From the NCBI GenBank assembly GCA_026986775.1, contig JALSNX010000027.1:62001-126000 (forward strand): a DNA stretch of 64,000 bases, written 5' to 3'. This DNA is from Caldifarciminota bacterium (GTDB lineage Bacteria > Hydrothermota > Hydrothermia > UBA1063 > CAJXJZ01). Position numbers and translations under genes: made by a program. Under the pieces are notes generated by a model. The model was not told the origin of the DNA. It saw only the letters and a program-made list of their open reading frames with translations, and ran no database searches. Positions 19,273-30,654 of this stretch are shown here, one piece after another; within the stretch, counting starts at the first letter, position 1; each line of letters starts with the position of its first letter.

Positions 19273-21861
19273 TTGAATGTGTTATTGATATTCTTCATGC
19301 TGGGTGCATCTAAAATAAAGGTGGTTGGGAAGGTTTTTGATGCACTCACAGGTGAGCCACTTCCTGGTGCAGGTGTTGTAATAGTAGAACTGGGAAGGGG
19401 CACCATGACGGATATGGATGGTTATTATGAGATTCCTGTAACAGAAGCGGGAGAGTACACTATAAAGGCTTCCATGATAGGATATAAAGATGAAGTGAAA
19501 AAGGTAAAACTCTCAAAGATAACGGAGATAAACTTCTATCTCAAGGAGCAGTCCATTGAAATGCCCGAACAGGTGGTGAAAGCAAAGAAAGAAGTGGAAA
19601 TAGAAAAGGATGTGTCTTCAACTGTGAGGTCCATTGGAAAAAGTGCTATAGAAGAAGACATTGCCACAAATATACAGGAGGCTGTGGCAAAGCGAATAGG
19701 TGCAGTATCAAGAGGAACGGAAATACATATAAGGGGTAGTAGAAGCAATGAGGTCTTATTGATGCTTGATGGGATTCCCATAAAAGACCCCCTTTCCGGT
19801 AGTGCATTTGGAATATTTATACCCAAAAATGCTGTTTCTGAAGTGGAGGCAGAGATTGGAGGATACAATGCTGAGTACGGTCAGGCAACATCAGGAATTA
19901 TTAAATATCATATAAAGGATGTGGCAGATAGATTTTCCCTTTACGCCAACTATAAAACGGACAATTTAGGCTTTAAGAGATACACCAATCTTGACATCGC
20001 TTCTTTGAGCATTCAGGGACCTGTGAGGTTTTTACCCATTAATGGCAAGGTTTCTTACTTTATAAGTTTGTATGGTAAGTTTGATGACACATATCTACCT
20101 CATTCCGATACCCTTTATTCCAGTGTGATTGGTATGACCTTTCCAAGGGAGGAGAACACCCTGTCATTTACGGGAAAAGTTGCATGGCAGTCAAAAAGCG
20201 GTAATAAACTCTCCTATTTGTTTACCAGATCGGTGGAGGTTAATCAGGGTTACTTTTATCACCGCTCTGATTATCCATTTGCCTATGGATTTCCTTATAG
20301 ATACATAAACATTCTTCCTAATTACCTTACGTTTACAAGGGATGCAAATACAGAGGCTCTTTCTTACCATCACGTATTCAATATTAAAAACTTTTTTGAT
20401 GTAAAACTTGCGCGATTTTTCACCAATCTCCATGCTGATGTAAATGGAAAAACCTGGACTGAATATACAGAAGTTCAGGATACATATCCACAGGACAATT
20501 TCTATGATATCGGTGATGCCCCATATTTCCATGACCATTATGTAGAGACATACACATTTAAGTTTGATTACACGAAGATTTTCAGCAAAATAGTGCGTGG
20601 CAAGACTGGCATTTTGCTCCAGAGAAATGAACTTCAATGGGTTGACATAGATTATCCGTGGTATTCAACCACTTCAGGACTTGGTCTCAACCACGATATT
20701 TACAGGGCACATTCCATAACCGGAGGATTGTATGCTCAAACGTCAATACACTTTGCAGGAATGATAGCGAATCTTGGCTTAAGAATGGATTTCTGGGAGC
20801 CTGGCAGTTATGTTGACGAAGGAGTAAAAAGGGCCCTTCAGCGTAATGACCTTCCGTTCCAGATAAGGAAGGAGTATGAGTCCTATTTAAATGACAATTT
20901 CACTATAAGAGGACGGGTATTTAAGGCGCATATAAGCCCGAGACTTGGATTCTCATATCCAATTACAGATGTGGATAAGTTCTATCTATCTTACGGTCAT
21001 TTTACACAACTCCCGGATCTCAAATACGTTTATTCAAAACTGGGAACGAGAACTTCATCAAGTTATGAACTCGTTGGTAATCCAAACCTCAATCAAATTG
21101 TGTCCGTATCCTATGAAATGGGGGTATCACATCTTATCGGAGATTATCAGAAAGTTAACCTTTCAGCCTATTATAAGGATATTTTCAATTACCCCACTGC
21201 CAGAAAAATACAGGGTATTCCCCCAAATCCTGATTACTGGATGTACTTTAACTCAGATTATTCAAGGTCTGTGGGTATTGAGTTAAGATACAAAAGGGCA
21301 GTTAAAAACCACATAGGTTCCTCCATGTCTCTTACACTCTCACAGGATAAAGGCCGTTCGTCTTCTCCTGAGGATGCATACTGGCTTGGCGGAGAGGAGT
21401 CTTTAAAGGAGTGGTATTTGAGATGGGATAGGCCGTTTAAATTTTACGGTGATGTAAATATTGTTTATGGCAAAAATGAGTATCTAAAACTGTTTAATAG
21501 AAGTGTGTTAAGCGATTTTACTTTAAGTTTTCAGGTTTCCCTTAAATCTGGAAAAAGGTACACTCCAATGGATACTCTTGGAAATAAGGGTGAAATAAAT
21601 TCAAAGACAGGGCCCATGTGGCACAGAGTGGATGTGGTATTTACCAAGACTGTGAGAATTAAGCATATTAAAACAAAGTTAAAACTTCAGGTGCGAAACC
21701 TCTTCAATCACAGGAATGTGTATTATATCAACCCTGTTACTGGCAGGGCCTATGAGCCCGGTGACCCACTACCACCGCGAAAGACGGAGAAGGACATGCT
21801 GAATCCTGCGCGGTATCTTCAGGGAAGGGCAGTTTATTTGGGTATGGAGGTGATGCTATGA
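19273..21861 (+). CDS. TonB-dependent receptor with carboxypeptidase-like regulatory domain
   Basis: This outer-membrane receptor has a short leader, an N-terminal carboxypeptidase-regulatory-like beta domain (residues about 17-93, KVVGKVFDALTGEPLPGAGV and GYYEI), a plug (about 100-215, IHIRGSRSNEVLLMLDGIP and IGGYNAEYGQATSGII) and a large 22-strand-type barrel ending YLGMEVML. No TonB, ExbB or ExbD is in view. It starts at TTG 19273 with AAGGAGG upstream and heads six overlapping or closely spaced envelope genes. The substrate is unknown; its link with PorV-like and sorting-tail proteins suggests a role in surface protein assembly or nutrient uptake. Confidence 0.9.
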   Translation: MNVLLIFFMLGASKIKVVGKVFDALTGEPLPGAGVVIVELGRGTMTDMDGYYEIPVTEAGEYTIKASMIGYKDEVKKVKLSKITEINFYLKEQSIEMPEQVVKAKKEVEIEKDVSSTVRSIGKSAIEEDIATNIQEAVAKRIGAVSRGTEIHIRGSRSNEVLLMLDGIPIKDPLSGSAFGIFIPKNAVSEVEAEIGGYNAEYGQATSGIIKYHIKDVADRFSLYANYKTDNLGFKRYTNLDIASLSIQGPVRFLPINGKVSYFISLYGKFDDTYLPHSDTLYSSVIGMTFPREENTLSFTGKVAWQSKSGNKLSYLFTRSVEVNQGYFYHRSDYPFAYGFPYRYINILPNYLTFTRDANTEALSYHHVFNIKNFFDVKLARFFTNLHADVNGKTWTEYTEVQDTYPQDNFYDIGDAPYFHDHYVETYTFKFDYTKIFSKIVRGKTGILLQRNELQWVDIDYPWYSTTSGLGLNHDIYRAHSITGGLYAQTSIHFAGMIANLGLRMDFWEPGSYVDEGVKRALQRNDLPFQIRKEYESYLNDNFTIRGRVFKAHISPRLGFSYPITDVDKFYLSYGHFTQLPDLKYVYSKLGTRTSSSYELVGNPNLNQIVSVSYEMGVSHLIGDYQKVNLSAYYKDIFNYPTARKIQGIPPNPDYWMYFNSDYSRSVGIELRYKRAVKNHIGSSMSLTLSQDKGRSSSPEDAYWLGGEESLKEWYLRWDRPFKFYGDVNIVYGKNEYLKLFNRSVLSDFTLSFQVSLKSGKRYTPMDTLGNKGEINSKTGPMWHRVDVVFTKTVRIKHIKTKLKLQVRNLFNHRNVYYINPVTGRAYEPGDPLPPRKTEKDMLNPARYLQGRAVYLGMEVML

Positions 21862-22841
21862 AGAAGGTGATATTCGTTGTTCTTGCTTTTAACCTGCTTT
21901 ATGCAGGGAGCCTGTTTGAGTTCCTTGGAGGTCAGAAAAAGGGTACCACTGCACTTCTGTTTTTAAAAATAGCTCCCGGGGGGACTCAGGTATCAATGGG
22001 TAATACAGGAGTTTCCATTGCTCAGGATGCAACATGTCTTTACTGGAACCCAGCGCTTGCTAATTTCATAAAAACACCGTCTTCCTTTACTGCATCATAC
22101 AGAAGATGGGTTGTTGACCAGAACTATATATATGCAGGTGGGATTAAATCTATTGGAAGGTATCATAGGATTGGTTTTTATTTGAGTGGACTTTCCAGCG
22201 GTTATTTTAAAGAGACAGATGAAAACCATCCTGAGGGGACAGGAAAATATATATCATCAGACGACCTTGCTATTGGAGTAGTTTATGCAAGGAACGTATC
22301 CGACAGATTTGCCTTCGGACTTTCATTGAAATTTGCTTACGAAAATCTTGCTGGTGTTTATGGATACACAGGATTACTTGATGTTGGAACCCTTTATCAG
22401 GTAGGATACAGGGATATTCAGATTGGTGTGTCACTTTCCAATCTCGGACCCGATTTTGCACTTAAGGGAAAATATCTTTCAGAGAATGCGGATAGTGTAT
22501 CTTATGATTCCTATTCAGTTCCAGTGATTTACAGGATAGGATTTAAAGGAAAACTGAAAGAATATCTCCTTGGTGCATTTGAAATAGAAAAGCCATCTGA
22601 TGATGTTGAGCAGTTTAAGGCTGGTTTTTCATTGATACCCACTGATTTTATAAACCTGAATGTTGGTTTTAGATTGAACAATATTCCACCAGGGGGTTCG
22701 TTTTTTACAAGGGGTGTTAACTTTGGTTTTACAATAAAGAAATCAACAGGACTTCATAAAGGATTCTACATATCTTATGCTGCAGAGCAGATGGGATATC
22801 TTGGAATATCCCATATAATAACAACAGGAGTGAATTTCTGA
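21858..22841 (+). CDS. PorV/PorQ-family outer-membrane protein
   Basis: It has a signal peptide (MKKVIFVVLAFNLLYAG) and then FLKIAPGGTQVSMGNTGVS and ATCLYWNPA, the typical start of PorV/UPF0164-type barrels, whose members help release type IX cargo at the surface. The remaining sequence is barrel strands, ending HIITTGVNF with terminal Phe. It overlaps the TonB receptor by 4 nt and abuts the next lipoprotein by a 1 nt TGATG overlap. The neighbour with a sorting tail supports a role in secretion. Confidence 0.85.
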   Translation: MKKVIFVVLAFNLLYAGSLFEFLGGQKKGTTALLFLKIAPGGTQVSMGNTGVSIAQDATCLYWNPALANFIKTPSSFTASYRRWVVDQNYIYAGGIKSIGRYHRIGFYLSGLSSGYFKETDENHPEGTGKYISSDDLAIGVVYARNVSDRFAFGLSLKFAYENLAGVYGYTGLLDVGTLYQVGYRDIQIGVSLSNLGPDFALKGKYLSENADSVSYDSYSVPVIYRIGFKGKLKEYLLGAFEIEKPSDDVEQFKAGFSLIPTDFINLNVGFRLNNIPPGGSFFTRGVNFGFTIKKSTGLHKGFYISYAAEQMGYLGISHIITTGVNF

Positions 22842-23785
22842 TGAAAAAGATTTTATATTTTTCCATTCTGGGCATGGTTATTTTTGGGTGTGGTAAAAAG
22901 TTTCCACTCCCCGAGGAGTCCAATCAGGGTATGCCATCAGAAAAGGAATATGTGGAAATACAGAATACCGAATGGGATAATTTGACATTCAGCCATCTAA
23001 AAGATGTGCTGTTAGGTGAGGATGGATACGTTTATGTTCTTTCTTCGGATACCCTCTATAAGTTTTCAACCACAGGTGAATATGGAAACATATTTTCTGT
23101 TCTTGACGGGGCCGTCTCTGTAACTCAGGATGTTGAGGAAAATATATATATAGCAACAAATAAAGGCATGGTTGTTAAATATTCATGGTCAGCAGAACCG
23201 CAGGATACCTTTGACTTTTCCTTTTTATGTAATGATTCCACCCTGCTGGATTCGTTTCTTACAAGCATAGATGCGGCGGGAGAAAACCACCTTGTTCTAA
23301 GTTCTGCTCCTTTAAATCTTGTGGTCAGGTTTTATCAGGATACAATAGACACTATTGCCACTTATGGTACCGGTATAGAATACACAAGAAGGCCAATGGG
23401 TGTTTATGCCAGAACGTACCCTCAGATTGTTCTTTATGCGAGTTCCCAGAACAACTGGGTTGAAGGTCTTTCTCTTATACCGCCACATTTCAGCATGATT
23501 CATCTTGGCGGTGATTCCTATAATGGAGGAACTGATGATACGTTATTTTTAAATCCTGTGGATGTGTACATGGATGATTCATCCTGCGTTTATGTCCTTG
23601 ATAAAGGGAACAGAGCAATGAAGAAGTTTGACTTTGAGGGTAGTCTTGTTACCGTGCTTTCTCTTCCTGATGACCCTGTGGCCATCACTGTAAGCCATGA
23701 TGGAAAAACACTTTATATAGCCTTTGATGACAGGATAAGAAAGTATAAATTACCTGAGATTCCAGGAGAAGGAGGTGAACAATGA
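22841..23785 (+). CDS. Lipoprotein with beta-propeller-like repeats
   Basis: The signal MKKILYFSILGMVIFGC has a lipobox (IFGC). The mature part contains NHL-like strands (EDGYVYVLSSDTLYKFS, EENIYIATNKGMVVKYS, SSCVYVLDKGNRAMKKFD, DGKTLYIAFDDRIRKYK), suggesting a six-bladed propeller for binding protein or glycan. It is coupled to both neighbours. The specific function is unknown. Confidence 0.75.
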   Translation: MKKILYFSILGMVIFGCGKKFPLPEESNQGMPSEKEYVEIQNTEWDNLTFSHLKDVLLGEDGYVYVLSSDTLYKFSTTGEYGNIFSVLDGAVSVTQDVEENIYIATNKGMVVKYSWSAEPQDTFDFSFLCNDSTLLDSFLTSIDAAGENHLVLSSAPLNLVVRFYQDTIDTIATYGTGIEYTRRPMGVYARTYPQIVLYASSQNNWVEGLSLIPPHFSMIHLGGDSYNGGTDDTLFLNPVDVYMDDSSCVYVLDKGNRAMKKFDFEGSLVTVLSLPDDPVAITVSHDGKTLYIAFDDRIRKYKLPEIPGEGGEQ

Positions 23786-25734
23786 ATGCCCTTTTATTCG
23801 TTGCTTTTATAGTTTCCCAGACAGATTTATCCTATTACAAGATGGAGGATATAGGCAATTTCAGGGTTATTGTGAGTTCCTATGGCCTTATTGGACATGG
23901 ATTCAATCGCTCTTTTGTTGACCCTGATACACACGAGCCCATCCCCTCAGGAGAATTTCCCAAAAATTCCGGGATTGAACATGTGTACAGGGCTGGAATA
24001 TGGGTTGGAGCAAAATCTCCTTCTGGAACGCATGTCTCCACGGCTGTTGTGAACAATGCTTATCCAATTCCAGGTGCAAGTGCAGGATTTGAATTTGCTC
24101 CTCCCTTCAGGAATGAGGCAGGTTATGTGGACACAGCATGGGTAAAGTCCTCGCTGCTTTATTCTCCATATTACTCTCCGGACGCTGTGTCTGAAAAAGA
24201 CATCTATGCCACCTTTTTTGACCACGACCATTTCAGGCAGGATACTGTACCGTATCACGTACCTCTTGGTATAAGGGTAGATGAGCGTATTTATGCATGG
24301 AGTTATTCATACATTCAGGACAACATGTTTATAATATGGACCATCCACAATGATGGAACAGTTGGTGCACTTGATAGTGTTTATATATCCCTTTACATAG
24401 AACTTGCCACAGGTTCAAGGGAATTCTGGGGGAGTGATTTTTCCACAACGCCGTATTTCCAGCATAAGAGACTCTATTCTGTAACCTTTGAGGATGGTGA
24501 TACGCTGTTTGATAAGTATCAGGCATTTTATGAGAAAAACGATGGCTATGACTATATAGCCGCACCGTATATGGCAGGAGTAAGATTTCTTGGATTCGTA
24601 AAAGATTCAGTTATGTATCCCGGAGATTCACTCCCTGATTCTCTCCATGTTTCCTATGTATGGTGGAGGTGGAGTGAAAATAGAGGAGATGACCCGGATT
24701 CAATAAGATACATGATTATGCAAAGAGACACATGCTATCAAAATGTTGACGACGATTATGTGATGAACAACGGTTATCCTGACCCTATACCAATGATGAC
24801 CGTAGGCCCCATACCGAGATTGAGGCCCGGCGACTCAATACAGGTGGCATTTGCGCTCATATTTGGAGGCAGTAAGAAGGAGTTTATACAGAATGCAGAA
24901 TGGGCGATAAAGGCCTTTCGTTCAGGTTATATACTTCCTGCACCCCCACCATCACCCCGCCTTGTTGCAGTTCCGGAAAAGAACAGAGTGTTGCTTTATT
25001 TCACCAATGATCCGGAGTTTGCACGGGACCCTGCACCTCCACATCTCAGGGATTTTGAATATTACAGGATTTATAGAGGTCTTTCACCTGATGTGAATGA
25101 CACCTCGTGGATATTGCTTGCGCAGTATGATAAACTTCCCGATGATACCATACAGGATGTTGACCATAGTGGTGGTTACAATGTGTGGTTCCCTGACCCA
25201 CCAAGGGCTGATACGGTGGATACGGTTTTTATTATCAATACTGAACATGGAGTAGATACAATACATCCCAGATATGTTTTTGTTGATGATGGTGTTAAAA
25301 ACGGTTTCACCTATTATTATGCAATAACATCTGCTGATGTAGGCAATCCGGATGCAGGATTACCTTCACTTGAGAGTTCAAAACTCCTTAATCTTGTAAA
25401 AGTGGTGCCCGGAACACCACCAAACAGGAGTTTTGAGGATACAGTGGGGGTTTATCCGAACCCCTACAGGGGTTCATCTATCTGGCAGAGAGAGGGTTAT
25501 AAGGATGAGGCAGTGAGATTTTACAACCTGCCAGAAAACGCTGAAATCCTTATTTACAACCAGTCAGGTAAACTGATAAGAAAAATAGAGCACAGTTCTG
25601 ATATGACAGGGGAAGAGGTGTGGGATTTAAAGACTGATTATGGATTTCCAGTCGCACCGGGGACCTATCTTTACGTTGTAAGAGACGTAAAAACTGGTAA
25701 GATTCAAAAGGGCAAACTAATTATTCTGAGATAG
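23782..25734 (+). CDS. Secreted protein with type IX-like C-terminal sorting domain, 650 aa
   Basis: A short leader (MNALLFVAFIVSQ) is followed by a large beta-rich body with a fibronectin-like region (about 395-545, DFEYYRIYRGLSPDVND). The C-terminal about 95 residues form a sorting-type beta domain: VYPNPYRGSS, VRFYNLPENAEILIYNQSG, VAPGTYLYVV and a final GKLIILR. This tail is typical of cargo released through type IX secretion. It is directly downstream of the PorV-like and propeller genes, so it may be their cargo or a surface component. The family of the body is not recognised. Confidence 0.8.
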   Translation: MNALLFVAFIVSQTDLSYYKMEDIGNFRVIVSSYGLIGHGFNRSFVDPDTHEPIPSGEFPKNSGIEHVYRAGIWVGAKSPSGTHVSTAVVNNAYPIPGASAGFEFAPPFRNEAGYVDTAWVKSSLLYSPYYSPDAVSEKDIYATFFDHDHFRQDTVPYHVPLGIRVDERIYAWSYSYIQDNMFIIWTIHNDGTVGALDSVYISLYIELATGSREFWGSDFSTTPYFQHKRLYSVTFEDGDTLFDKYQAFYEKNDGYDYIAAPYMAGVRFLGFVKDSVMYPGDSLPDSLHVSYVWWRWSENRGDDPDSIRYMIMQRDTCYQNVDDDYVMNNGYPDPIPMMTVGPIPRLRPGDSIQVAFALIFGGSKKEFIQNAEWAIKAFRSGYILPAPPPSPRLVAVPEKNRVLLYFTNDPEFARDPAPPHLRDFEYYRIYRGLSPDVNDTSWILLAQYDKLPDDTIQDVDHSGGYNVWFPDPPRADTVDTVFIINTEHGVDTIHPRYVFVDDGVKNGFTYYYAITSADVGNPDAGLPSLESSKLLNLVKVVPGTPPNRSFEDTVGVYPNPYRGSSIWQREGYKDEAVRFYNLPENAEILIYNQSGKLIRKIEHSSDMTGEEVWDLKTDYGFPVAPGTYLYVVRDVKTGKIQKGKLIILR

Positions 25735-25743
25735 GAGGATAGC

Positions 25744-27060
25744 ATGAGAAAAATTATTTTGCTTACAGGTTTGATATTTTTGGGGCTTTCATGTAAAAAG
25801 CCCGCAGAGAACCCTGTGGAAAATATTCCTCCTGATACGCATATCTTTGTTGAAGGCACGACAGACACAGTCCCTGCTTATCAGATTATTCACTGGTATG
25901 GCAATGACCCTGATGGATATGTGGTGGGATACTATTACCACTGGGACAGCGACACCCCTGTGTTTACGACAAAAAACGTGGATACCTTCACGCTTTCTGT
26001 TCCTGATACAGACAGTATAGGTGTGCACGTATTTTATGTGAGTGCAGTGGACAATGAGGGTGAAGAAGACCCAACTCCCGCAACTGTTACCATCCCTGTT
26101 AAAAATTCACCTCCTGTAATCAGTTTTCAGCATAATACACTTCCACCGGATACCACCCTTCCTTATGTGACATTTTACATTGAGACCCACGATATAGATG
26201 GTGATGAGAGTGTGATAGGGTTCTATTATCGCACAGATTACGATACGATGTGGGTTTTCCAGAGTATTGATACAGATTATGTGACCTTTAAAAATGTACC
26301 TTCAGGAACACATGTTTTTTATTTCAGGGCTATAGACCAGAGTCATGCTGTCTCGGATATAATATCGGATACGGTTTATATAATTCCTGCAACAGGCGAT
26401 ATTCTTGTAATAGACGATTCTCCCGATGCTGAGGCTGATAATACGTATGGTGAATTTTTCGCAAATAATTATGCCGGAAATTACACTGTATGGAACGTTA
26501 ATAAGTTTTTGCCTTACTCTTTCTACGACATTGATGGTATAATAAACAGTTTAGGTTTCAGAGTTATCTTCTGGTACACAGGAACAGATGGAAATTCAAT
26601 CACTGCACTCAGAAAGTCAATTGAATCTTATATAGATGACGGTAAAGCCATGTTTCTTGTGGGACCATCAATACTGGATTCAGTATATAACCCTCATGAT
26701 ACGCTCTCATCAAGAAGCTTTATGAACAATTATCTTGGTGTTAAGAATGTAAATAAGTGGAATACCATTCTGCTTGATGGAGGAATAGTATATCTTGATA
26801 CAGGTGACACTTTGAATCTTTCTGTTCCAGCATTTAAAGTGGAATTAATTGAACCCAACGATTCTGTAAACGCCGAAACCATTTTCAGTGCATTTGGAAG
26901 TACCATTGCAGATTCTGTGAATTGCATAGGAGTAAGGTTCCCCTCATCTTCACCGAGGGTGTACTTTGTACCTGCTGAACTACATAAATTCAATGCTTCT
27001 GCTAACCTCTACACAGTACTGAAGAATATAATAGATGCTCTTCTGAGCAAAAGGAGGTAG
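25744..27060 (+). CDS. Lipoprotein with Ig/fibronectin-like repeats
   Basis: The lipoprotein signal MRKIILLTGLIFLGLSC is followed by two similar domains of about 90 aa (PPDTHIFVEG to TVTIPV; PPVISFQHNT to DTVYIIP), each with a DPDGYVVGYYYHWD or DIDGDESVIGFYYRTD motif. The C-terminal half (about 215-435) starts ILVIDDSPDAEADN and is alpha/beta, resembling the glutamine-amidotransferase-like folds found in surface proteins; this is tentative. GGAGG lies 5 nt before ATG. It is part of the envelope cluster. Confidence 0.7.
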   Translation: MRKIILLTGLIFLGLSCKKPAENPVENIPPDTHIFVEGTTDTVPAYQIIHWYGNDPDGYVVGYYYHWDSDTPVFTTKNVDTFTLSVPDTDSIGVHVFYVSAVDNEGEEDPTPATVTIPVKNSPPVISFQHNTLPPDTTLPYVTFYIETHDIDGDESVIGFYYRTDYDTMWVFQSIDTDYVTFKNVPSGTHVFYFRAIDQSHAVSDIISDTVYIIPATGDILVIDDSPDAEADNTYGEFFANNYAGNYTVWNVNKFLPYSFYDIDGIINSLGFRVIFWYTGTDGNSITALRKSIESYIDDGKAMFLVGPSILDSVYNPHDTLSSRSFMNNYLGVKNVNKWNTILLDGGIVYLDTGDTLNLSVPAFKVELIEPNDSVNAETIFSAFGSTIADSVNCIGVRFPSSSPRVYFVPAELHKFNASANLYTVLKNIIDALLSKRR

Positions 27061-27062
27061 AT

Positions 27063-29234
27063 ATGCTGTTTTTACTTCTTATGTCGTTTTTTGGAACTTC
27101 TCATGTGGCACTTGTGGAAAGAAGCGCTGCTGCCTCTTTGAATCCGGCAGGTCTGTACTTTGACCCTGCTGTGGAGTTGAAAGCCGGTCTTTATCAGGAT
27201 TCATCCTATGTTGTCGCTCTTTCTCTTATGAGAATGGGGCTTTCTGTCTTTGGGAATAACGAAGGAGTAAAGGACTTTACCATATCTGAATCCATGGGCT
27301 ACAAAAACATGGCGCTTGGGTTCTTTTATGGTAAAGATTCAAGGTATGGAATTGGGGTTATGGCAAGGCCTACAGATTTTCTCTCTCTGGGGGGTGTTAT
27401 AGACAGTAAGGATAATTTACAGGTTGGTGCTGCTTTCAATCTATTCTCAAACAAACTGTTTCTTTCAGCAGACTATATTAAAAAAGATACCGCATTTTCT
27501 ATCGGGATTGGTGCAAGGCCATTTAAGTGGATGACTGTTTTTTCCAATCTTAAAAAACGTGGTATTTCTTTGGGAGTGGACATTTACATGGGACGAATGG
27601 GGGTATCTTTTGAGGCAGATACATTAAAGTCCAACGTTGAAATCATTGTGTCAGGGCTTAATTATCCCTCTTTAGTTCCAGGAAAGCGTAAATGGATAGA
27701 GGTTGTACCACGTAGTTATAAAGAATACAGGACCAGAACTGGTTTCCTATTTTCATCTTTCAAAAAGAATTCCTTTTATGATTTCATACACTCAGTTCAG
27801 AAAGTTGTGGATGAACCCGATATAGAAGGTATATACCTTGATATGAGATTTTCGCATCTTCTTTCATATCAAAATGAGGAACTTTTAAGGGTTTTGAAAA
27901 AGGCCAAGTCAAAAGGTAAAAAGATTGTGATGTTTTCAGACATATACGGCATGTCAGAACTGCCACTCATGAACATTGCAGACAGGGTCATACTCGTGCC
28001 AGAGGGGGAGGTTATTTCTCTGGGGTTTGCATCAACAGGCATGTTCTTTAAGGGTTTTCTTGATAAAATCGGGGTAAAGGTTGAGGCGCCACGAATAGGA
28101 AAATATAAATCTGCTGTTGAACCATTTGTGAGGGAGAACTATTCTGAGCCTGCTCGCGAGCAGACTGAGGTTCTCCTTTCAGATTACTTTGATTTCATTA
28201 CAAACGCTTCCCAGCCAAAATACAACCTCAAAGAGCTACTGGATACAGGATTTTATAACAGTGACAGAGCACTAAAATATAAACTCGTGGATACGGTGCT
28301 TCATGTTGAGAAGGTGAAGGATTACATTAAAAAGTCTTTTGGCCTTAAAAAACTGAAGATGGTATCTCTGTCAAAGTATGAACGCCAAAAGGCCTATGAT
28401 TTCTCTTTTGGAAATAAAAGAGGAAACATAGCCCTTCTTGTTTTAGATGGTGATATTATACGTGGTGAGTGTTCTGAGGGTTCTCTTCCCATACCTGTTT
28501 TTGGAGGAAGACATATAGGTTCTTACACGGTCATAAGGTTACTTAACAGACTTAAAAACGATAAGAGTATAAAGGGGGTTGTCATAAGAGTTAATTCACC
28601 TGGAGGTGATGCTCTTGCTTCTGAGGAGATGTATAGTGCAGTAAAAAGTCTTGCTGAAAAGAAGCCTGTGGTTATATCCATGGCGAGTATGGCAGCATCC
28701 GGTGGGTATTACATTTCTGCTCCAGCAACCTATATAATGGCTGATAACCTGACACTCACAGGTTCCATAGGTATTTTGAACCTAAAGTTTGTTATAAGCG
28801 ATATGCTGGCAAAGATAGGTATAACAACTGAAACGGTTAAAATAGGTGAACATGCGGATGTATTTTCTCCATACAGGGAGTCAACAGTAGAGGAAAAAAG
28901 GTTCATGCAAAAAGAACTTGAATGGGGTTACAACATGTTTCTTGAAAGAGTGGCAATGGGCAGGGGACTTAAAAAGGATTCGGTTAATACAATAGGACAG
29001 GGTAGAGTCTGGAGTGGTACTAAAGGTAAAGAGATAGGACTTGTTGATGAAATAGGTGGTATACTTGATGCTATTAAAAAGTGTGCCCATTTTGCAAAGG
29101 TGAAAGAGCCCGTGGTAAAATACGTGCCCTGTATGAAAAGCAGGGGCTTTTCCTTCTTCGGTAACACGAAGGAATTTTTAAGAATTCCTCCATCGGGCCT
29201 TTACTATATTGCACCGATAATAGAGGTAAGATGA
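27063..29234 (+). CDS. sppA: SppA-type S49 protease fused to an N-terminal beta-rich domain
   Basis: Residues about 240-715 form a tandem SppA (signal-peptide peptidase, family S49). The first half carries the general-base lysine region (APRIGKYKSAVEPF) and the second the nucleophile serine in MASMAASGGYY plus VIRVNSPGGDALASEE. SppA normally cleaves leftover signal peptides from the periplasmic face. Here the N-terminal about 225 residues are different: a leader, ASLNPAGLYFDP (a PorV-like start) and repeated amphipathic strands, suggesting a partial outer-membrane-type barrel. It ends the envelope cluster, with an AGGAGG site before ATG. The fusion is uncommon as far as I know. Confidence 0.88.
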   Translation: MLFLLLMSFFGTSHVALVERSAAASLNPAGLYFDPAVELKAGLYQDSSYVVALSLMRMGLSVFGNNEGVKDFTISESMGYKNMALGFFYGKDSRYGIGVMARPTDFLSLGGVIDSKDNLQVGAAFNLFSNKLFLSADYIKKDTAFSIGIGARPFKWMTVFSNLKKRGISLGVDIYMGRMGVSFEADTLKSNVEIIVSGLNYPSLVPGKRKWIEVVPRSYKEYRTRTGFLFSSFKKNSFYDFIHSVQKVVDEPDIEGIYLDMRFSHLLSYQNEELLRVLKKAKSKGKKIVMFSDIYGMSELPLMNIADRVILVPEGEVISLGFASTGMFFKGFLDKIGVKVEAPRIGKYKSAVEPFVRENYSEPAREQTEVLLSDYFDFITNASQPKYNLKELLDTGFYNSDRALKYKLVDTVLHVEKVKDYIKKSFGLKKLKMVSLSKYERQKAYDFSFGNKRGNIALLVLDGDIIRGECSEGSLPIPVFGGRHIGSYTVIRLLNRLKNDKSIKGVVIRVNSPGGDALASEEMYSAVKSLAEKKPVVISMASMAASGGYYISAPATYIMADNLTLTGSIGILNLKFVISDMLAKIGITTETVKIGEHADVFSPYRESTVEEKRFMQKELEWGYNMFLERVAMGRGLKKDSVNTIGQGRVWSGTKGKEIGLVDEIGGILDAIKKCAHFAKVKEPVVKYVPCMKSRGFSFFGNTKEFLRIPPSGLYYIAPIIEVR

Positions 29235-29237
29235 AAC

Positions 29238-30020
29238 ATGCAGGTGTGGGATAGAATAGAGAAGATTAAGATCTACCGGGCAGATTTTCTGGAACTTGAA
29301 CTGCCACGAGAAAGTGTTGATCTGATAGTTACATCTCCTCCTTATAATGTTGGCATAGATTACAATGTACATAATGATGCCACATCGTATGAGCAGTATC
29401 TTTTATGGTCCAGAAAGTGGTTAAAAAAAGCGTTAGATGTTATAAAAGATGATGGCAGGATGTGTTTAAATATTCCTCTGGATAAAAATAAGGGTGGCCA
29501 GCAGAGCGTATATGCCGATATAACGCATATTGCTAAAGAGGTAGGATGGAAATATCATGCAACGATAATATGGAATGAAGGAAATATATCCCGCAGGACA
29601 GCGTGGGGAAGCTGGCTCTCTGCCTCTGCCCCTTATGTTATAGCACCAGTGGAGGTAATTGTGATTTTGTACAAAAAATACTGGAAGAAAAGAACAAAAG
29701 GTTTAAGTGATCTGAGCAAGGAAGAATTTGTAGAATGGACCAATGGTTTATGGACATTTTCAGGAGAAAGTAAAAAAAGGGTTGGACATCCTGCGCCCTT
29801 CCCGATGGAACTTCCTAAAAGGTGCATAAAACTGTTTTCCTACGTGGGAGATGTGGTGCTTGATCCATTTCTTGGAAGCGGTACGACTTTAATAATGGCT
29901 CATAAACTGGACAGGGTCGGTATTGGAGTTGAGATTGATGAAGAATATTTCAAATTAGCCATTGAGAGAATAGAAAAGGAATGTATAACGACCGGGAGGC
30001 TATTTGATGGAGATCAATGA
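29238..30020 (+). CDS. DNA methyltransferase, beta class (N4-cytosine or N6-adenine)
   Basis: The catalytic motif TSPPYNVG lies near the N-terminus (residue about 33) and the SAM motif LDPFLGSGTTL near the C-terminus (about 210), the order of beta-class enzymes. SPPY rather than DPPY favours N4-cytosine methylation. It has 260 aa with little room for a separate recognition domain; the middle segment (about 95-180) probably reads the site. It is only 3 nt after sppA and overlaps the nuclease by 14 nt, so the second restriction system seems to ride on the envelope transcript. Specificity is unknown. Confidence 0.88.
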   Translation: MQVWDRIEKIKIYRADFLELELPRESVDLIVTSPPYNVGIDYNVHNDATSYEQYLLWSRKWLKKALDVIKDDGRMCLNIPLDKNKGGQQSVYADITHIAKEVGWKYHATIIWNEGNISRRTAWGSWLSASAPYVIAPVEVIVILYKKYWKKRTKGLSDLSKEEFVEWTNGLWTFSGESKKRVGHPAPFPMELPKRCIKLFSYVGDVVLDPFLGSGTTLIMAHKLDRVGIGVEIDEEYFKLAIERIEKECITTGRLFDGDQ

Positions 30021-30654
30021 TATTTCAAAGTATTTGGAATCGGAGAAGGAGAGATACGTTAAAAAGAAAGTATCAGAGTATATTGAAAAGGGATTTAACC
30101 GAAATCAAGCAGTGAATAAGGCCAATCAATCGTGGAGAACCTATATTGGTTCACGCATACAAAATGTGATACTCAAATTAATTGAGAGCAGACTAAAGAA
30201 AAGTGGTCTTAAAGTTACAAGTGATAGAGCGTTATCCAGGAAAAAACTTCCATCTAAACTTGAACTTGTCAAAAGGTTGCTGGTCATTGACTATGGTAAA
30301 TACCTGTTTTTACCAGATGCTGACATTGTAGTGTACAAAAAAGATAAAAATAAGGTGAGGGTTCTGGCTGTAATTTCAGTTAAAAATTCTTTCAGGGAGA
30401 GGGGTTTTGAGACAACATACTGGAAACTTAAATTTAAAGAATCTCCTGTGACGTCACATATAAAGGTATATCTTGCCACTCCTGATAAAGATGGAGAGAT
30501 TTCTTATATAGCACCACGAAAGCGGCCAAAGAAAATGAGAGTAATCCTTGAGTATGAGTTGGATGGAATTTATTTTCTGAAGGAAGACTTTGAGAAAACA
30601 GAAAAAGCAAAGCATTTTTCTGAAATAGTGGAAGATATATTGAAACTCGTATGA
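30007..30654 (+). CDS. Probable type II restriction endonuclease partner
   Basis: A PD-(D/E)xK-like core can be seen: FLPDADIVVYKK near residue 100, followed by AVISVKNSFRER near residue 122, like the SxKxSxRER pattern of several type II enzymes (DpnII, BsaWI groups). The N-terminus is helical and basic. It has 215 aa. ATG 30007 has GGGAGG 7 nt upstream and overlaps the methyltransferase. The position directly after a methyltransferase supports a restriction role. I cannot name the family or the target. Confidence 0.75.
   Translation: MEINDISKYLESEKERYVKKKVSEYIEKGFNRNQAVNKANQSWRTYIGSRIQNVILKLIESRLKKSGLKVTSDRALSRKKLPSKLELVKRLLVIDYGKYLFLPDADIVVYKKDKNKVRVLAVISVKNSFRERGFETTYWKLKFKESPVTSHIKVYLATPDKDGEISYIAPRKRPKKMRVILEYELDGIYFLKEDFEKTEKAKHFSEIVEDILKLV

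Follow-up and report, generated by a model that had tools for sequence, protein, structure and literature searches.

Textbooks describe SppA as an enzyme of the inner membrane whose task is to remove spent signal peptides. Within the 64,000 nucleotides analysed here (the window, to which all positions refer), one gene encodes an SppA in which the tandem protease domains are preceded by a long extension rather than by a short membrane anchor. An earlier note on this DNA had proposed that the extension resembles an outer-membrane protein and could tether the protease to the outer membrane or serve in the maturation of surface proteins. This raises the questions of whether the fusion is genuine, what its N-terminal domain is, and at which membrane the enzyme would act.

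The gene and its reading frame

The gene, hereafter barrel-SppA, was found in the open reading frame list at exactly the proposed position, 27063-29234 on the forward strand, encoding 723 amino acids plus the stop. A strong ribosome site, the Shine-Dalgarno sequence AAAGGAGG (27050-27057, forward strand), lies 5 bases before the ATG and fixes the start codon; the exact combination of Shine-Dalgarno sequence and start at 27050-27065 occurs once, against zero occurrences expected from shuffles. Two homologues from the same genus, with 70% and 66% identity, are full length, as is the one at L034, and most of 60 relatives have a homologue of full or near-full length.

A gene-prediction or assembly artefact, or a frameshift joining two separate genes, could also produce such a fusion, and one relative (G023) does have a gene interrupted by stops. 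A domain search of 147 genomes of the phylum WOR-3/Caldifarciminota, to which the source genome would belong judging by its nearest named relative, however, found the fusion in a single intact frame in at least 100, counted from the match list as open frames of at least 650 residues and including a second type of about 810 residues. A profile search recovered a long frame with the domain in some 38 further genomes outside the phylum, again counted from the list. We therefore rule out an artefact, to which we give next to no probability, and the search for the same fusion in related genomes that the earlier note had suggested comes out in favour of an uninterrupted gene. The interrupted copy in G023 (L085:6404-8678) is itself either a pseudogene or an assembly error; its same-genus relatives are intact.

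The protease part

Tandem S49 domains were confirmed at about residues 226-690 (27738-29132, forward strand). The Peptidase_S49 model (PF01343) matches with an E-value of 1.3e-60 and 204.2 bits against a cut-off of 24.9, the TIGR00705 model for the 67K type of SppA scores 324.1 bits, above its curated cut-off of 311.45, and E. coli SppA (3bez) is matched across residues 226-687 with an E-value of 3.6e-65. The catalytic Ser-Lys dyad is divided between the two domains: Lys349 (in RIGKYKSAVEPF; 28107-28109) and Ser546 (in ASMAASGGYY; 28698-28700), both on the forward strand, align with the corresponding active-site regions of E. coli SppA and are Lys and Ser, respectively, in 96 of 96 aligned homologues. 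Judged by its dyad and domain matches, the protease is a catalytically intact tandem SppA.

Barrel-SppA thus has in common with E. coli SppA, or protease IV (67K, TIGR00705, PDB 3bez/3bf0), the tandem S49 arrangement, with the Lys in the first domain and the Ser in the second, and a protease part of the same order and length. The E. coli enzyme, a tetramer, is held in the inner membrane by one N-terminal transmembrane segment and breaks down signal peptides once they have been released (PMC9360617); barrel-SppA has a leader and a barrel-like domain instead. In standard tandem forms (L182-L192) the protease match starts at residue 52-86, immediately after the anchor segment, whereas barrel-SppA lacks a transmembrane anchor directly N-terminal of the protease, and its leader gives way to about 180 residues with a strand pattern. 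From the last predicted strand, which ends near residue 195, a linker runs to residue 225 (residues 196-225; 27648-27737, forward strand), as placed by an alignment of 48 long forms. This is the position of the membrane-proximal segment in standard SppA. The earlier estimate of some 225 extra residues was therefore about right. The only other S49 gene in the source genome encodes a short SppA (G000:C9, about 280 aa) that shares the S49 domain but is single-domain, with a transmembrane leader and no barrel.

The N-terminal domain

Residues 1-228 are matched by none of the Pfam or NCBIfam models. The PorV-like motif ASLNPAGLYFDP was recovered as residues 24-35 and contains NPAGL (residues 27-31; 27141-27155, forward strand), which corresponds to the NPA motif in proteins of the PorV/FadL type; its N27 and P28 are invariant across the 41 homologous N-termini of our alignment A3. 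When this alignment was compared by hhalign with PorV-family proteins of the same phylum, the match had a probability of 97.3 and an E-value of 2.1e-11, with NPAGL aligned on the NPAG of the PorV family. Column-shuffled controls reached at most 0.5% in 20 of 20 cases and the SppA core only 0.1%, but the reversed A3 profile reached 57%. A generic strand pattern thus supplies part of the PorV match but falls short of explaining it.

Other comparisons place the relationship as distant. The PorV_fam model matches only four of the 41 N-termini, weakly (best E-value 4.5e-4), while the A3 profile hits TodX, a barrel of the FadL family, with an E-value of 0.007 and designed transmembrane barrels with values of 0.04-0.3. 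The domain of the source protein alone gives no match to the PorV/PorQ family NF033709 (cut-off 90 bits), nor does barrel-SppA match the PorV/PorQ equivalog models of type IX secretion, and the protein of the source genome gives no match to FadL/TodX (PF03349) above the Pfam cut-off; one of 28 domains from outside the phylum matches PF03349 at 0.005. A profile search of the PDB with these other-phylum domains returned no barrel, and one chance match to a ribosomal protein. Barrel-SppA resembles PorV/PorQ (NF033709) and FadL/TodX (PF03349) in an NPA motif near the start, a 14-strand pattern predicted at low confidence and distant profile similarity, but it is much smaller, falls below the family cut-offs, lacks the approximately 20 residues that precede the NPA motif in PorV and has a protease added at its C-terminus.

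Evidence for strands was sought in two further ways. In column hydrophobicity, the lag-2 minus lag-1 autocorrelation is 0.47, compared with 0.00 +/- 0.11 in shuffles, none of 5000 of which reach it, so that the repeating amphipathic strands described in the earlier note go beyond chance; over the SppA part of the same protein the values are negative. An AlphaFold2 model of the N-terminal domain from a two-sequence alignment contains exactly 14 strands in residues 38-195 (27174-27647, forward strand) at low confidence (pLDDT 51). The structure prediction called for earlier thus yields, at low confidence, 14 strands, unlike a normal SppA extension. A full-length model made likewise from two sequences, the source protein and its L034 homologue, has a pLDDT of 34 throughout, the SppA part of known fold included, and is therefore uninformative for or against a barrel. 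Foldseek found no match with an E-value below 0.001 for the low-confidence domain model; mitochondrial VDAC/TOM40 barrels, returned with a probability of about 1 but with E-values above 0.01, were not counted as kin.

Outer-membrane barrels have long, variable loops on the outside and tight turns in the periplasm. We took the strand positions alone from the AlphaFold2 model and measured the 13 connections between them in the 41 homologues. Connections 1, 3, 5, 7, 9, 11 and 13 are variable, with standard deviations of 1.35-4.0, and connections 2, 4, 6, 8, 10 and 12 are nearly fixed, with standard deviations of 0-1.25. The seven variable and six fixed connections strictly alternate, and the ranges of the two classes are fully apart. 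Such asymmetry would put both ends of the barrel, and hence the protease, in the periplasm.

Taken with the PorV profile match and the strand alternation, this supports the outer-membrane-like, PorV-like character first suspected for the domain: its N-terminal 200 or so residues look like a minimal 14-stranded barrel related to PorV/FadL outer-membrane proteins. Alternatively, though this is unlikely, the domain could be a beta-sheet or small barrel that stays soluble in the periplasm, not inserted in a membrane, and binds substrates or partners. The source domain is very compact, with 14 strands in about 160 residues, and the strands, mostly of 6-10 residues and typically about 8, are shorter than those of usual membrane barrels; the want of a direct family match for this domain on its own points the same way. 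Against a soluble domain speak the relation to PorV/FadL proteins, the long variable loops that face fixed tight turns across the predicted barrel, as in outer-membrane barrels, and homologues in other phyla in which the domain has the size of an ordinary barrel, with about 220 residues for the strands.

The leader and export

The predicted leader, MLFLLLMSFFGTSHVA (residues 1-16; 27063-27110, forward strand), is short and hydrophobic and, as the earlier note had it, present; it contains no basic residue, and its cleavage site is a reading from the sequence. It is probably a Sec signal. The same lack of a basic residue characterizes 31 of 41 homologues, a Lys or Arg within the first eight residues being found in the other 10. 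In families f9 (L047, L055, L065, L068, L071) and f3 (L077, L080, L081) the leaders, such as MLYPFFELSSVA, are hardly signal peptides at all, and in the f9 example that was read an in-frame stop just 5' of the start leaves no upstream room in frame. Outside the phylum, the long forms mostly have ordinary signal peptides, so that export is probably the ancestral state of the fusion. Uncharged leaders may be a habit of this lineage. Two neighbouring proteins presumed to be exported (19273-21861 and 23782-25734) likewise begin with short leaders, MNVLLIFFMLGAS and MNALLFVAFIVSQ, in which no basic residue occurs.

Distribution and history of the fusion

The second, longer type of about 810 residues, whose domain is of ordinary size, led from the phylum to genomes outside it. 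From 28 such genomes 29 long forms were taken, every one of which has the domain by the A3 model (E-values of 4e-9 to 7e-39), and the in-phylum and outside-phylum domain profiles match each other with a probability of 100 and an E-value of 2e-38. The A3 model, in contrast, gives no match in 11 standard tandem forms (566-609 aa) fetched for comparison. Among plasmid records, no match extends over the barrel region. Neither a normal SppA extension nor a frameshift, the two findings that might have overturned the original proposal, was encountered.

When a tree was built from the protease part, sequences with the barrel fell apart from standard ones, with three state changes. Twelve of 13 standard rows lie on one side of a branch, although its support is weak (81/58), the outlying standard row being L185. 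Inside the barrel-bearing group lie, with a support of 100, tandem forms of family f3 that have no barrel, which means that it was lost there after duplication. The weakly supported tree fits, but does not prove, one ancient fusion with later losses.

The barrel domain also occurs as a separate protein of 216-264 aa, in families f18 and f30 (L133-L149). These proteins end 6-22 residues past the predicted last strand, which supports the domain boundary. About 10 f18 genomes (G086, G087, G094-G101) lack a tandem SppA and have, besides one short SppA, a stand-alone barrel. Several genomes of this family have three genes side by side, namely the short SppA, a beta-N-acetylglucosaminidase-like gene (PF07555) and the barrel gene; in G092, also of f18, the barrel found at this position is part of a fusion with SppA. 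Since it is kept where there is no tandem SppA, the barrel seems to serve a purpose even when the tandem protease is missing. Conversely, family f20 (G050, G056, G060-G062; 91-99% complete) has neither the barrel domain nor any S49 protease and yet retains Omp85, which indicates that barrel-SppA is not essential to the outer membrane.

A protease at the outer membrane?

The source genome encodes Omp85 and has ten PorV-family matches. We consider it probable that barrel-SppA is an SppA tethered to the outer membrane, with the barrel inserted there and the protease at its periplasmic face, and the proposed outer-membrane tether is to this extent supported through the PorV-like domain, with the placement itself inferred. 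The leader would send the protein through Sec, and residues 24-195 or so would form, in the outer membrane, a small 14-stranded barrel of the PorV/FadL type. Since the strand number is even, both barrel ends would face the periplasm and the tandem S49 protease, which like the E. coli enzyme probably forms a tetramer, would hang on the periplasmic face of that membrane. The substrates most likely to be cleared would be hydrophobic peptides, together with unfolded segments of proteins that are exported or belong to the outer membrane, and the separate short SppA with its transmembrane anchor would serve the inner membrane.

The barrel might instead be a FadL-like conduit through which hydrophobic peptides enter or leave the protease chamber, so that external peptides would be taken up and degraded or fragments exported. 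The FadL-superfamily affinity and the NPA motif would suit a conduit, as would the retention of the barrel alone in about 10 genomes without the tandem protease, where it may have its own function. The barrel is, however, minimal, its plug region is shortened and there is no sign of a pore, and we regard a conduit as rather improbable, though marginally less so than a soluble domain. A bolder reading, to which we give the same small chance as the conduit, is of an ancient and widespread class whose barrel acts as a channel, passing hydrophobic peptides or unfolded segments of outer-membrane proteins between membrane and protease chamber, the whole forming a dedicated degradation machine in many phyla.

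The literature lends some support to the idea that SppA matters for the outer membrane at all. Deletion of SppA in Flavobacterium columnare raised outer-membrane vesicle output 3.8-fold and abolished gliding (PMC13236525), although that enzyme, of 589 aa and the larger E. coli-like size, is standard, with a transmembrane anchor and no reported barrel. Leptospira SppA is among listed surface-proteome proteins (PMC8659334). We found no paper describing a barrel-fused SppA in the open-access literature, and no curated model for the class; since no Pfam or NCBIfam model covers the N-terminal domain, these proteins match SppA models only, and routine annotation does not reveal how they differ. The results suggest an overlooked class of protease at the outer membrane, across one phylum and dozens of other bacterial families. 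If so, SppA-type proteolysis would also occur at the outer membrane, and there would be a concrete gene family for studying how bacteria rid that membrane of polypeptides that are damaged or hydrophobic.

The neighbourhood

Barrel-SppA belongs to one compact same-strand gene run, 19273-29234. On its 5' side are a TonB-dependent receptor, a PorV-family protein, two lipoprotein-like genes and a protein resembling those with a type IX secretion (T9SS) sorting tail, although the tail match is weak. It might be supposed from this run, as the earlier note did, that the enzyme is a dedicated maturation protease for the adjacent surface proteins, whether T9SS-like substrate, lipoproteins or TonB receptor. 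The order TonB receptor, PorV, lipoprotein, T9SS-like gene is indeed kept in family f1 and, with one gene inserted, in its sister family f2. Within the phylum, however, conserved linkage to T9SS genes is limited to these two families: elsewhere the neighbours of barrel-SppA are unrelated and the fusion is present without these surface genes. A general functional link with the neighbouring surface genes is therefore rejected beyond f1 and f2, and dedicated maturation seems to us the least plausible of the proposed functions, with a distinctly slim chance.

On the 3' side, a type II restriction-modification pair (29238-30654), consisting of an N6/N4 methylase and a BsaWI-type endonuclease (PF18643, E-value 4e-35), sits between barrel-SppA and a DUF523 gene. 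In the same-genus loci L034-L036 the SppA gene overlaps the DUF523 gene directly, so that the pair is apparently a recent insertion.
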